A DNA stretch of 46,719 nucleotides, taken from the NCBI GenBank assembly GCA_913058495.1, contig CAJXQC010000023.1, forward strand, positions 1 through 46,719, read 5' to 3'. Made by a program: the position numbers and the translations under genes. The notes below the pieces were generated by a model that worked only from the letters and a program-made list of their open reading frames with translations, searched no databases and had not been told where the DNA came from. This DNA is from an uncultured Balneola sp. Its GTDB lineage: Bacteria > Bacteroidota > Rhodothermia > Balneolales > Balneolaceae. The first letter of the stretch is position 1. Each line of letters begins with the position of its first letter. Positions 33,992-37,892 of the stretch are shown here, piece by piece.

Positions 33992-35254
33992 ATGAAACTG
34001 AAAATACATTCCACCTCTGCATTTTTGATTCTTTCGGCACTCACTTTCTTTGTTGCGTGTAATGAATCCGGAGACATTACCCCCGCTGATATTGAAAAGC
34101 ACATCACTTTTCTGGCAAGTGATTCCCTGCAAGGTCGTGAAGCCGGTTCCGCTAACGAAGCTATAGCAGCGAACTATATTGCTGATAACTTCAGAGATTT
34201 TGGTTTGGAACCTGCAGGAGATAACGAAACCTTTTTCCAGGAATTCACCATTAATACCGCTGTGTTGAGAAATCCTCATGCCGGAGATGATGCCGAAGGC
34301 GAAAAATTACTTTCCAAAAATGTAGTTGGTTTATTACAAGGAACCGGCAACTCTGATGAGTTGATCATTATTGGAGCACATTATGATCATTTGGGTTTTG
34401 GAGAATTTGGTTCCTTATACCGCGGAGAGCAAGAACGCATTCACAATGGCGCTGATGATAATGCTTCGGGAACTGCCGGAGTGCTTGAACTGGCTGAATA
34501 TTTCTCCGCAAATCGCCCCAAGAAAGATATTTTGTTTCTGGCTTTTTCAGGTGAAGAAATGGGGTTACTGGGCTCTGCTTATTATGTAGATAATCCAACA
34601 GTAGATCTGGAAAACGCCCTTGCTATGATCAATATGGATATGATCGGTAGAATGGTTGATAAAAAACTGATGATCTTCGGAATTGGAACCGCTGAAAACT
34701 GGACAGCCATTCTGGATTCTGCCAATACCGGAAATCTGGATCTGAATTTGGTCAAAGACGGGACCGGAGCCAGCGATCACACCAGTTTTTATTATAAAGA
34801 AATTCCCGTGCTTCATTATTTCACGGATACGCACGCCGATTACCACCGACCCTCTGACGACACCGAGTATATAAATATGAATGGCACAGCTTTGGCGCTT
34901 CATCATTTAGTGCGGGTAATCGTGCAACTGGATGAACTACAAAAAGACGAACTGGCTTTTGTGGAAGCTCCCGGTGAACAACGTCAGTCTATGAGTTTAG
35001 AAGGACCAACCTTGGGCGTGCTCCCGGATTACGGCTATGAAGGTGAAGGAATGAAGATCACGGGCGTAACTAAAGGCAGAGCGGCTGCAAATGCCGGAGT
35101 TAAAGGTGGAGATATTATCGTAGGAATTGCCGGCGAAGAGCTTGCCGATATTTACGCTTATATGGCCATGCTGAACAAACTCAAAAAAGAGCAAAAAACT
35201 ACCATTACAGTCCTCAGAGATGGCGAAAGAATGACGATGGATCTGGAATTGTAG
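33992..35254 (+). CDS. M28-family metallopeptidase with C-terminal PDZ domain, lipoprotein
   Basis: A 420-residue exported peptidase. The lipobox FVAC places Cys23 as the lipid anchor. The zinc-site motifs are complete: AHYDH (His130), GADDNASG (Asp155), SGEE (188-189), INMDMIGRM (Asp216) and a late histidine in YHRPSDD. Residues ~340-420 form a PDZ domain (ITGVTKGRAAANAGVKGGDIIVG), which could bind substrate or partner. It probably trims peptides in the periplasm or at the cell surface. It starts at ATG 33992. It is the last ordinary gene before the cassette array. Confidence 0.93.
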   Translation: MKLKIHSTSAFLILSALTFFVACNESGDITPADIEKHITFLASDSLQGREAGSANEAIAANYIADNFRDFGLEPAGDNETFFQEFTINTAVLRNPHAGDDAEGEKLLSKNVVGLLQGTGNSDELIIIGAHYDHLGFGEFGSLYRGEQERIHNGADDNASGTAGVLELAEYFSANRPKKDILFLAFSGEEMGLLGSAYYVDNPTVDLENALAMINMDMIGRMVDKKLMIFGIGTAENWTAILDSANTGNLDLNLVKDGTGASDHTSFYYKEIPVLHYFTDTHADYHRPSDDTEYINMNGTALALHHLVRVIVQLDELQKDELAFVEAPGEQRQSMSLEGPTLGVLPDYGYEGEGMKITGVTKGRAAANAGVKGGDIIVGIAGEELADIYAYMAMLNKLKKEQKTTITVLRDGERMTMDLEL

Positions 35255-35348
35255 GATTGGATTTGTTCAAAACTTCAGTTCAATATTCTTGTACTGAATA
35301 AATCCTAACTTCTTTGTTTACTAGTATTTTAAGATTGTTTTATGGATT

Positions 35349-35385
35349 TTATCCGGACAAACTCGGAAAACCCTTGTCTGGATAA
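35349..35385 (+). terminator. Hairpin at the left edge of the cassette array
   Basis: TTATCCGGACAA (35349-35360) pairs with TTGTCTGGATAA (35374-35385), 12 pairs with one G-U. It may terminate the M28 transcript; no run of Ts follows. It lies seven bases before the first GTTATGTG core and could also be part of the attachment site. Confidence 0.5.
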
Positions 35386-35425
35386 TATTATGTTATGTGT
35401 ACCAAAAATCTAAACCAATAATCAG

Positions 35426-35779
35426 ATGGGTGTAAGCTACAGTTTAGTTAACTATACAAAGAAAGAGTATGTAATCTTTGATAAAGTTCTTGCCAGCAAA
35501 GCACGAGAATTAGCTGGAAACCCAGCTTCTGCAGCTATCTCAACTTGGTATTTGTTAAACAATATTGGTGACAATATTTCTTTTATCTCCGATACATATA
35601 ATGAATGGCCATTCCCTGAAGGATCGCGAGATGAATTAATGAATTATACAGAAGTAACAAATAGGATTGTTTCCTCCTTAATTTCAGAAGCTATTCTCGT
35701 AGATGAAGGAAAGGAGTTCCTATTTGATGATGATAAAGATATTTACTTTAGAAAACTCCGCAATATATGGTTAGAATAA
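35426..35779 (+). CDS. Hypothetical protein in cassette 1
   Basis: A 117-residue soluble acidic protein with no signal peptide or membrane helix; I do not recognise the family. Visible segments are MGVSYSLVNYTKKEYVIFDK, then a tract with NPASAAISTWYLL, and a tail with DDKDIYFRKLRN. It starts at ATG 35426, 27 bases after the GTTATGTG core, and stops nine bases before attC1. That packing is typical of a cassette gene. Cassette proteins are often unknown and can serve in stress, phage defence or addiction, but nothing in the sequence points to one of these. Confidence 0.7.
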   Translation: MGVSYSLVNYTKKEYVIFDKVLASKARELAGNPASAAISTWYLLNNIGDNISFISDTYNEWPFPEGSRDELMNYTEVTNRIVSSLISEAILVDEGKEFLFDDDKDIYFRKLRNIWLE

Positions 35780-35788
35780 ATGCGGGTA

Positions 35789-35919
35789 CACATAACAAGC
35801 GTTTTAAGTCGAACTCGGGAAGTGGCTCCGCTATTTTTAACTTTCAGGTAACTGATTAATTCTGTTACTTTCAAAAAAACCGAAAACCCTTCGCCGCTTA
35901 AACGCGGGGTCGTTATGTG
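35789..35919 (+). other. attC-like recombination site 1
   Basis: The R boxes CACATAAC (35789-35796) and GTTATGTG (35912-35919) are exact inverted repeats. The L boxes GCGTTTTAAG and CTTAAACGC pair with one extra T on the 5' side, an extrahelical base as in true attC sites. A GGGGTC spacer sits opposite AA. The ~90-base middle is variable and contains GTAAC/GTTAC arms. Confidence 0.75.
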
Positions 35920-35949
35920 GCTTACTTATTAAACTTCTATATTTTTTTG

Positions 35950-36405
35950 ATGAAATATTTATTTGCTCTACCTCTCATAATCATCTTAGTATTTTCTTCA
36001 AATAGCTATTCACAGAGTCTATTTCCAAACACTTTTGAAGATTGTAATACGGAAAGGTTTGCTCTAGAAATGGATACTACAACCGCAAAAATTGCAGATT
36101 CAAAATTAATTTCTATAATAACAACTGGATTGGATCAACAAAATCTTGAAAATGTTAATGGAATTATGGCTCTTCAAGTAATAGTCGAACTTGATGGAAG
36201 CTCATGCTTGTTAAGTTACGACAATCGACTAAATATCGAAGGTTTTGGTTCGAAGCTAAAAACAGAAATTGATAAGAATTTGAAATGGCTAGAACCATCA
36301 AAGAAAGTAGCGGCAATTGTATCCATACGTATTCAAGATGGATTAATAGAATTTAAAAGGTTAGGAATGGGCGGGGATAAAGGTATTCATGAACTCCAAA
36401 ACTAA
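35950..36405 (+). CDS. Exported hypothetical protein in cassette 2
   Basis: A 151-residue protein with a clear signal peptide (YLFALPLIIILVFSS, cut after SYSQ). The mature part, with ALQVIVELDGSSCLLSYD, then KNLKWLEPSKKVAAIVSIRI, faintly resembles TonB C-terminal-type domains, but the likeness is weak. I start at ATG 35950; a GTG at 35917 would begin inside the attC site. It ends 20 bases before attC2. Like the first cassette gene it lies on the plus strand with its own short spacer. Confidence 0.7.
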   Translation: MKYLFALPLIIILVFSSNSYSQSLFPNTFEDCNTERFALEMDTTTAKIADSKLISIITTGLDQQNLENVNGIMALQVIVELDGSSCLLSYDNRLNIEGFGSKLKTEIDKNLKWLEPSKKVAAIVSIRIQDGLIEFKRLGMGGDKGIHELQN

Positions 36406-36425
36406 TTCTATTGTCAAGCCCTCGC

Positions 36426-36534
36426 CACATAACAAGCGTTTCAAGTCGGACGCAGGCAGGATTCGCTAGTAAGTTTGTAAGCAATAAAAATTTTCAGTTA
36501 CTTCAACAAAAAACGAAACGCTGGGTCGTTATAA
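36426..36534 (+). other. attC-like recombination site 2
   Basis: ATAAC (36429-36433) pairs with GTTAT (36528-36532); AGCGTTTC (36435-36442) pairs perfectly with GAAACGCT (36515-36522). The spacer GGGTC lies opposite a single A. The middle, ~70 bases, differs fully from attC1, while the R and L boxes are shared. This is the pattern expected of attC sites. Confidence 0.75.
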
Positions 36535-36574
36535 ATCTTGCCACTTCGGCTCATAAAATAAAGTATAGTAGTTC

Positions 36575-36757
36575 ATGAGAAATACAATTAAAACAATTCT
36601 TTACCTCTTAACAATTTTACTGACTTTCCAAACATTTTCTATAGCTCAGTCCATTGAACTTACCGACTCAGAAGTTGAGAGATTTCTATGTAAAAAATGG
36701 GTTATTCAGTATATGGATATGCAAGGGATGAAAGGTCATTTTAAACCAGCTGTATAA
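36575..36757 (+). pseudogene. Short exported ORF in cassette 3, probably truncated
   Basis: Sixty residues: a signal peptide (LYLLTILLTFQTFSIAQ) and then SIELTDSEVERFLCKKWVIQ, a start that looks like a small secreted lipocalin-like protein cut off after ~35 mature residues by a TAA. It begins 42 bases after the attC2 core, as a cassette gene would. The following ~70 bases have no continuation in the other frames that I can read. Either a truncated cassette gene or a very small protein. Confidence 0.5.
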
Positions 36758-36830
36758 AATTAGAATCAAAACACCATTTTAATAGCATTGCTTACAATTT
36801 TTGAATTGAATTATGTCAACTAAGAATAAG

Positions 36831-36849
36831 GTCTAACAAGCGTTTCAAA
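36831..36849 (+). other. Half attC site (5' arm only)
   Basis: GTCTAAC (36831-36837) fits the RYYYAAC core, and AAGCGTTTC (36838-36846) repeats the L box of attC2. No matching 3' arm (GAAACGCT, GTTA) follows before the RRM gene; a repeat begins about 35 bases on. The site appears broken. Confidence 0.6.
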
Positions 36850-36882
36850 CGTACTTGGTTAGGGTTCGGAACAACGGAAAGC

Positions 36883-36974
36883 ACCACTCGTCATTTTGAG
36901 CTTGATGTAGAATAAGTAATTGATCGGATTAACGAATGAGCCTTTAACAGATCCTGAATCAAGTTCAGGATGAC
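36883..36974. repeat. Relics of dispersed repeats
   Basis: 36949-36974 is the inverse of a shortened version of the 47-bp repeat at 30494 (GTCATCCTGAAC joined to TTGATTCAGGATCT). An imperfect related stretch, GTCATTTTGAGCTTGATG, lies at 36889-36906. The surrounding gap 36758-37103 holds no gene other than these and the half attC site. Confidence 0.6.
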
Positions 36975-37103
36975 CCTACTATTCTGACCCACTCTTGTTC
37001 TCTCCCTAACATTAGGGAATCCCGACAATAAACCTGACCTCTACTGAAAGCTTACCTTTATTACTATTTTTGGGAGTGAGCAGAATTCTAATATCATATA
37101 TTC

Positions 37104-37340
37104 ATGAAAATACTAGTCCGAAACCTTACACGAAGCATTACAGAAAAAGAAATACAAGAACTTTTCGAAAAATACGGTGTGGTTGAAAGCTGTAACTTGG
37201 TTCTGGATAAAAGCACGCGAAAGTCAAAGGGCTTTGGTTTTGTTGAAATGCCGAACTCAGATGAAGCTAAGACAGCAATAAAACAGCTGAACGGTAAGAA
37301 GTTTGTAAATCACCCCATCAGAGTTAAACAAGTGGATTAA
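37104..37340 (+). CDS. RNA-recognition-motif (RRM) RNA-binding protein
   Basis: A 78-residue single RRM, common as stand-alone protein in Bacteroidota and cyanobacteria. RNP2 is ILVRNL at residues 3-8 and RNP1 is KGFGFVEM (~43-50); the rest has the usual beta-alpha-beta pattern with KEIQELFEKYGVVESC and AIKQLNGK. It binds single-stranded RNA in the cytoplasm; targets are unknown. It starts at ATG 37104, 260 bases after the broken attC site, and is followed by a repeat-rich region. Confidence 0.93.
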   Translation: MKILVRNLTRSITEKEIQELFEKYGVVESCNLVLDKSTRKSKGFGFVEMPNSDEAKTAIKQLNGKKFVNHPIRVKQVD

Positions 37341-37892
37341 GCCCACAGATCCTTCGGAAATATACGATGACACCACATTTTTGTTCTCGTTTTGTAGCTC
37401 TACTGCGAAACACGGTTGGAAAACTCTGGCTTCAATGAGATTACTTACTTACATGCATTACTCTTAAATGGTGAAAATCACTCTTTCAGAAATCCGGCAT
37501 TGAGATGGTGAAGGAATAGCTGATCATCATAACAGAATCTCAACGAATAAAACCTGTTCGCAAAGCGAGCATTTGGTTTTATTCAGAGGTTCGCCGATGA
37601 TCTGCCCGGAAGCATCTCCGCCGGGAGCTTTTGGTACTTTTGTCGGTACAAAAGTGCAGAAATGAATGAGATGAAAACTGATCTTTAACTCTTCCAGAGT
37701 TATAAATACCCAAATTTATGAGTAATCATCATGTTCAACTCTGGAAGAGTTGGTGCACAGATCTTACTCCACTCCTAAACCTATTTCTGAATTTTCGCAT
37801 CTACCCAACTGTGCAGATCCTTCGGAAGTATCCTCAGGATGACTTTTTGGAATAAATATTACCTTCAATCAATATTGAACATTCATTATTCA
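37341..37892. repeat. Repeat-rich intergenic region between the RRM gene and argH
   Basis: No gene is seen. It holds: a CAGATCCTTCGGAA-type fragment at 37345 and again at 37816; a hairpin at 37545-37584 (GAATAAAACC with GGTTTTATTC, inner TGTTCGC with GCGAGCA); CCCGG/CCGGG at 37605-37625; ACTTTTGT-CGGT-ACAAAAGT at 37636-37655; a 15-bp inverted pair AACTCTTCCAGAGTT (37687-37701) and AACTCTGGAAGAGTT (37737-37751); and AATATTGAA/TTCAATATT at 37871-37904, which runs into the argH stop. Confidence 0.8.

Follow-up and report, generated by a model that had tools for sequence, protein, structure and literature searches.

How does an array of gene cassettes come to stand in a chromosome with no integron integrase (IntI) beside it? 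IntI excises cassettes as circles via the folded bottom strands of their attC sites and inserts them at attI. Clusters of attC sites lacking an integron integrase (CALINs) are about as numerous as complete integrons in the figures that we drew from one survey (2961 vs. 2760), which in the passages concerned presents attI as poorly described outside class 1 (PMC9024848). Off-target insertion, loss of intI and rearrangement are the origins of CALINs put forward in excerpts from a second source (PMC8618304), and insertion at attG sites is described for IntI1 in portions of two others (PMC12444791, PMC12901181). The stretch analyzed here (the window) is contig C23, 46,719 nucleotides long, and comes from a draft genome of 3.40 Mb (47 contigs, 99.4% complete). 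We compared it with relatives from the Balneolaceae (phylum Balneolota), a little-studied family for which, as for stand-alone attI, our literature search, thin in its coverage of subscription journals, returned no paper on integrons. The genome under study is labeled G000 and the family genomes G001-G091, with C denoting a contig and L a fetched stretch; G002 is taken as Balneolaceae bacterium UBA3186, G004 as Balneola sp. HXMU1428-10, G020 as Gracilimonas amylolytica LA399 and G021 as Gracilimonas mengyeensis DSM 21985.

An earlier note on this DNA had described two complete inverted sites with shared R and L boxes, and cores at 35392, 35912 and 36528. Sequence inspection and a repeat search found both sites with the boxes as described, and two attC covariance models were used to judge them: R1, from 29 sites, and R3, a held-out model from 23 sites of other genomes only, in whose alignment 99.2% of pair cells hold standard pairs and 4 of the 17 pairs have changed on both sides. 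The covariance check proposed in the note gave two significant R3 matches, both on the forward strand: attC site 1 at 35793..35915 (TAAC ... GTTA, with L'' GCGTTT and L' AAACGC; 94.5 bits, E 3.9e-24), which keeps every model pair except one, and attC site 2 at 36430..36531 (62.7 bits, E 3.1e-15), whose right end carries the core at 36528. The second site has intact cores but is not complete, as an internal deletion of ~16 bp in its right half breaks 6 inner model pairs. The remaining R3 matches in the 46.7-kb window were site 1 on the reverse strand (E 0.035) and one weak match (E 0.36). Further along lies a broken attC reduced to its left half (R'' and L''; 36833..36873, forward strand), a 41-bp remnant that shares 90% identity, over 41 bp, with the corresponding half of an attC of 84 nt that is intact in G002.

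Across the whole genome R1 returned 15 attC matches with E < 1e-4, mostly clustered, on 7 of the 47 contigs (C23, C26, C30, C6, C19, C9 and C12), so the R/L blocks of the window are not general intergenic repeats. Neither outcome that the earlier note had named as fatal to its proposal, a lack of attC model matches or R/L blocks as ordinary intergenic repeats, was seen. A loose pattern, ATAAC-gap-AGCGTT, occurred 22 times in the genome and 22 times in a reversed control, so that only exact clustered copies are informative, and Rfam at a permissive threshold gave no match over 35200-37100. Bottom-strand folding, also suggested earlier, had a mixed outcome against shuffles (site 1, z -2.15; damaged site 2, z -0.04), and we set single-strand folding aside as proof of attC identity because its signal was weak even for intact attC sites (L019 bottom strand, z -0.98; L086 top strand, z -1.52). 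We regard the two window sites as true attC sites.

The three same-strand ORFs that had been listed are present (35426-35779; 35917 or 35950-36405; 36575-36757). Gene cassette 1 (35393..35912, forward strand) holds a 117-aa ORF at 35426-35779, and gene cassette 2 (35913..36528, forward strand) a 151-aa ORF at 35950-36405, for which 35917 is an alternative start; neither belongs to a known family. A third-cassette remnant (36529..36832, forward strand) holds a 60-aa ORF, probably truncated, at 36575-36757. The cassette ORFs had no Pfam or PADLOC match save a sub-threshold one to DUF3139 for the 60-aa ORF, and a sigma-70 promoter scan found 6 sites vs. 6.5 expected. A cassette inserted by IntI starts with bases that pair with R'' of its own attC. 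The start of cassette 1, GTTATGTGTACC, is the exact complement of its own R'' over 12 nt, and that of cassette 2 shows 10-nt complementarity, agreement that to all appearances marks both as integrase-inserted. The start of the third piece does not match R'' of the half-site that follows, which makes it a fusion or deletion product; the window array is partly decayed.

A search of the 91 remaining genomes of the family gave no match to cassette 1 at E ≤ 1e-4. Cassette 2 recurs with 96.5% nucleotide identity at a different locus and in a different attC array, on G002 contig C3 (L290); the alignment, 35891-36465, begins in attC sequence ~20 bp before the cassette border and stops inside the attC. 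The inner parts of the attC that accompany the cassette 2 gene are unrelated between the window (35950-36531) and L290, and the attC core seems to have been exchanged around the gene while the R'' end was kept. Related cassettes also occur in unlinked and intI-linked arrays, at 84% (G010 vs. G020, the G010 platform being one that retains an intI fragment) and 68% (G001 vs. G003), which fits a shared pool. Inside another array of G000 (C6:2033-2627, L017) are two small ORFs that by eye have a HigB/HigA-type toxin-antitoxin look, the first of them 95% identical to an ORF in an array of G029.

At 35392 the core does not belong to an attC. A motif scan of 30 intI loci yielded 15 with a recognizable attI, starting ~80-100 bp from the intI match; these 15 intI-linked sites, with no orphan site among them, were used to train a sequence-only attI model (R2), and the remaining loci (no match or a different end) were excluded. 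R2 matched the window over 112 bp, at about 35284..35395 on the forward strand (E 7.5e-7), with its model end 137 falling on 35395. A second place in G000 resembles this region: out of 118 bp (~35283-35400), the 96 bp at 35300-35395 are 84% identical to C26:40703-40798, likewise upstream of a cassette array. The right end of the window match, GGATAATATTATGTTA, is also the end of the intI-upstream attI in G002, G004 and G020. We thus have homology to intI-adjacent attI that ends at the crossover GTT immediately before the first cassette, with the crossover at G35392/T35393 and no adjoining intI, and the core at 35392 is an attI-cassette junction, the end of a stand-alone attI. We refer to such a site as a platform, about 110-134 bp in size.

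A hairpin or covarying arms in attI, where by eye each site had seemed to carry lineage-specific inverted arms, were rejected as a feature: own arms paired no better than swapped ones across 25 dereplicated attI. A tandem pair of attI-like units occurs at G029 C2:2943-3254 (L141), where by eye the outer one is without a normal crossover end, and two arrays, at G000 C12:1-2000 (L103) and on G002 C3 (L290), start by eye with a short attI-like stretch, a small inverted repeat followed by TATGTTA.

The platform lies directly behind a gene at 33992..35254 (forward strand) with 97% identical orthologs in G001, G004 and G005, whose product we take to be an M28-type peptidase with a PDZ-like end. On the other side the right flank (37012..37401, forward strand; 91% identical to G001 L084:429-815) contains a gene at 37104-37340 for an RRM protein (RRM_1, E 1.3e-24). 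Both flanks are shared with the sister genome G001 in the same gene order, the left to 35262 and the right from 37012, and between them the attI aligns over 35295-35395.

A search of the 46.7-kb window for intI homology was negative at E ≤ 1e-3. With its two R3-detected attC sites the locus is therefore a CALIN by definition, as the earlier note had called it, although that call missed the attI homolog at the array start and so described less than is there. An integron is complete when intI adjoins attI; here intI is on contig C30. The search of the remaining genome, which that note had recommended, found a single intI over the family cut-off, at C30:32157-33098 (435.5 bits), with 11 weaker matches below it. 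Residues 4-318 of the 321 in this IntI align with the solved integrase chain 2a3v (E 5.5e-82), and we take the active-site motifs to be present in that alignment. The resident IntI has an attI core, CATATTAATATGTTA, near that of an orphan attI on C19, whereas the window attI core is of a different sub-type; recognition of the window site by the present-day enzyme is consequently not assured, and it may have been an earlier IntI that filled the window platform.

The C30 intI adjoins metK, as do those of G002 and G003. Its protein is 67-68% identical to IntI of the congeners G002 and G004 and 76-80% identical to that of G021, G029 and G035, with which it has its attI sub-type in common, while the metK beside this divergent IntI is 98% identical (L020 vs. 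G002 L093), a pattern that suggests replacement of the intI-attI module at a fixed metK locus. At the metK locus of G001 intI is missing, and an attI piece and an array remain. In G001 (L084, L087 and L090) four places carry attI-like sites and attC matches number 18, with no intI match at E ≤ 1e-60. In G000 a single repeat interrupts three attC at the same right-half base (C30:34259, C26:41960 and C19:44; L294, L293 and L292); its right end is found also at C6:1, it is present in one of the eight genus genomes, and no complete copy was seen. It is probably an insertion sequence, and presumably recalls the IS1111-attC elements.

Over 89 family genomes R2 gave 65 matches at E ≤ 1e-6, 17 of them intI-linked and 48 unlinked, the latter spread over 25 genomes, of which 18 have intI elsewhere and 7 have no intI match (TIGR02249) at E ≤ 1e-60. 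In G021 six attI matches at E ≤ 0.01 accompany one intI match at E ≤ 1e-60. From the unlinked sites we assembled an orphan sample of 60 stretches, comprising the best R2 matches by E-value down to 2.8e-5 plus the C26 site of G000 (2.5e-4); G091 C74 was excluded for a partial intI adjoining it. An attC in the correct orientation lay within 3 kb downstream of 36 of the 61 unlinked attI, an inverted one in 0 of 61, and upstream attC were seen for 5 of 61, in a count whose members are not independent events, since orthologous sites from different genomes each entered the count, two stretches overlap and some of the attC had been in R1 training. Where at least 2.5 kb was available on both sides (n = 45) the figures were 31 downstream and 5 upstream; of those five, all but one (L149, L150, L152 and L160) resemble arrays of another attI further up. 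The other 25 of the 61 had no attC within 3 kb downstream, some of them being at contig ends.

Of the first cassettes behind attI without an adjacent intI, 32 had the next attC within 2.5 kb and borders that could be found; among these, 24 had start/R'' complementarity of at least 8 nt, vs. 22 of 992 swapped pairs. Fragments of intI (23-100 residues, 52-86% identity) were kept in 7 of the 60 orphan stretches, which implies that part of the orphan attI are decayed integrons; two more stretches contain a distant recombinase (L163, 36%; L156, 31%). In G020 an orphan attI shares 97% identity with the intI-linked one across 134 bp, and beyond this stretch the homology breaks off sharply at either end, arguing for copying of an attI unit, at least there. 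A second attI occurs 6 to 13 kb downstream of an intI-linked one, in the same orientation, in G025 (C4:764008) and G004 (C18:61706), so an array can apparently contain or run into another platform.

One platform with a fixed place and changing content is that on C26, beside a gene that we take to encode phytoene desaturase. It is orthologous in G000, G001, G002, G003 and G004: the flanks align with ~80-94% of nucleotides identical, those of G004 on both sides with G002 and with G001, and in G001, G002 and G004 the left alignment break falls at attI. R2 finds the attI in all of these species save G003, where only the last 24 bp are recognizable. Between the flanks the arrays align only in parts of attC and in a single stretch of 491 bp common to G001 and G002, and the five first cassettes have no mutual similarity at E 1e-4. 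The examined stretch shows no intI homology in any of the five species; with every first cassette different, filling probably continued after any local intI was gone. Turnover is absent from one other orphan array pair, in G001 and G004, whose cassettes are almost identical (100% and 96%) and which seems frozen.

At the peptidase platform of the window, an insert precedes attI in G001, and in G004 attI is broken, with attC still downstream. Within 420 bp past the peptidase gene no attI was seen in G002, G003, G005, G006 or G007, two of which (G003 and G007) by eye seem to share a gene after it, and no clean empty site was found at this locus. The peptidase ortholog of G002 is followed, ~13 kb further on and in the same orientation, by an attI of the other sub-type (C8:66254, L148).

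We consider it likely that the window holds an integrase-less chromosomal attI platform whose cassettes were inserted by an IntI encoded elsewhere, now or formerly. Two alternatives founder on the structure of the locus. The earlier note had allowed for the end of a larger array, and this gives way to the chromosomal flanks shared with G001 on both sides (to 35262; from 37012). The same flanks tell against an assembly artifact, in which the window array would be the separated end of an intI-linked array: arrays on C30, C19, C26 and C6 do end at contig edges in the common repeat, but that of the window is internal to its 46.7-kb contig, between genes in G001 order, and we regard the artifact as refuted on these grounds, with next to no probability left to it. 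Insertion by IntI into a chance chromosomal GTT site (attG) rather than an attI is known behavior for IntI1, going by the parts of two sources that treat it (PMC12444791, PMC12901181), and some arrays have only a short attI-like end (that on C12, by eye; that on G002 C3, E 0.013). At the window, however, the site fits a model of intI-linked attI over 112 bp and resembles another platform of the same genome at 84% identity, which would be unexpected of a chance site; this homology appears already to have largely refuted the attG explanation, which we hold to be very improbable.

The alternative that deserves most weight, though we think it rather unlikely, is that an ordinary integron stood here, lost its intI and has persisted as a decaying relic with no refilling since. 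The intI fragments in 7 of 60 orphan stretches speak for such losses, as does G001, without intI at its metK locus yet keeping attI piece and array there, and the damage to attC 2 and to the third attC of the window is what a relic would show. Against it, the window yielded no intI remnant, the place expected for intI is occupied by the intact peptidase gene, and the C26 platform has different first cassettes in all five species with no local intI in the stretch. What counts against filling in trans is in part the same evidence: the mismatch of attI sub-types, the intI remnants, the 7 of 25 genomes without intI and the damaged window attC. To these add the 25 of 61 orphan attI with no attC downstream, the frozen G001/G004 array pair and the G003 platform, where R2 did not detect the shortened attI.

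Filling in trans, our preferred explanation, would run as follows. An integron integrase from another locus, either the present one or one of the past, would have put cassettes into the attI at the G35392/T35393 crossover; beside the peptidase gene that attI now heads two whole cassettes and what is left of one or more others. Our data show the attC sites, the cassette ends, the attI homology, the lack of a nearby intI, the differing cassettes at an orthologous platform and the presence of cassette 2 at two loci; from these we infer that IntI works in trans on stand-alone attI, and which enzyme did so here. The window array is then best read as a CALIN founded on a dedicated attI without an integrase of its own, a seemingly novel form of integron, on which IntI would have acted in trans. 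A broader proposal, to which we give an even chance, is a distributed integron in which one integrase would serve several stand-alone attI docking sites, arising as discrete units of ~134 bp, fixed through speciation and each with its own fast-changing cassette array. Many CALINs of the family stand behind attI homologs, so that for these both chance insertion and simple breakage of an array fall away as explanations. Should a single IntI fill many attI platforms, the integron would extend over the whole genome and have more than one first position, rather than being confined to one locus. Named Gracilimonas strains offer both the sites and IntI that do or do not own them, which makes IntI/attI specificity and filling in trans directly testable.

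Measured against known systems, the window array agrees with CALINs in having at least two attC, cassette genes in one orientation and no neighboring intI, and differs in starting at an attI homolog, which the passages on CALINs in three sources do not name (PMC9024848, PMC8618304, PMC12444791). It shares attI, the attC family and cassette junctions with sedentary chromosomal integrons, of which G000 has one beside metK, but is without intI and belongs to a genome with several attI platforms. Like attG insertions its cassettes are away from intI, whereas its site is an attI homolog rather than a short consensus. In Xanthomonas, as covered in the relevant sections of one paper, integrase-free arrays likewise occupy the same loci across species with intI elsewhere, and intI has been replaced at a fixed locus; those sections mention no attI at the CALIN loci, unlike what we find here (PMC12444791). 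The Delta-attI-type gene cassettes of mobile integrons also carry attI sequence away from intI, but there, according to the part of the source that deals with them, the attI piece forms the 3' end of a cassette in a mobile array, whereas the attI of the window heads a chromosomal one (PMC12901181).
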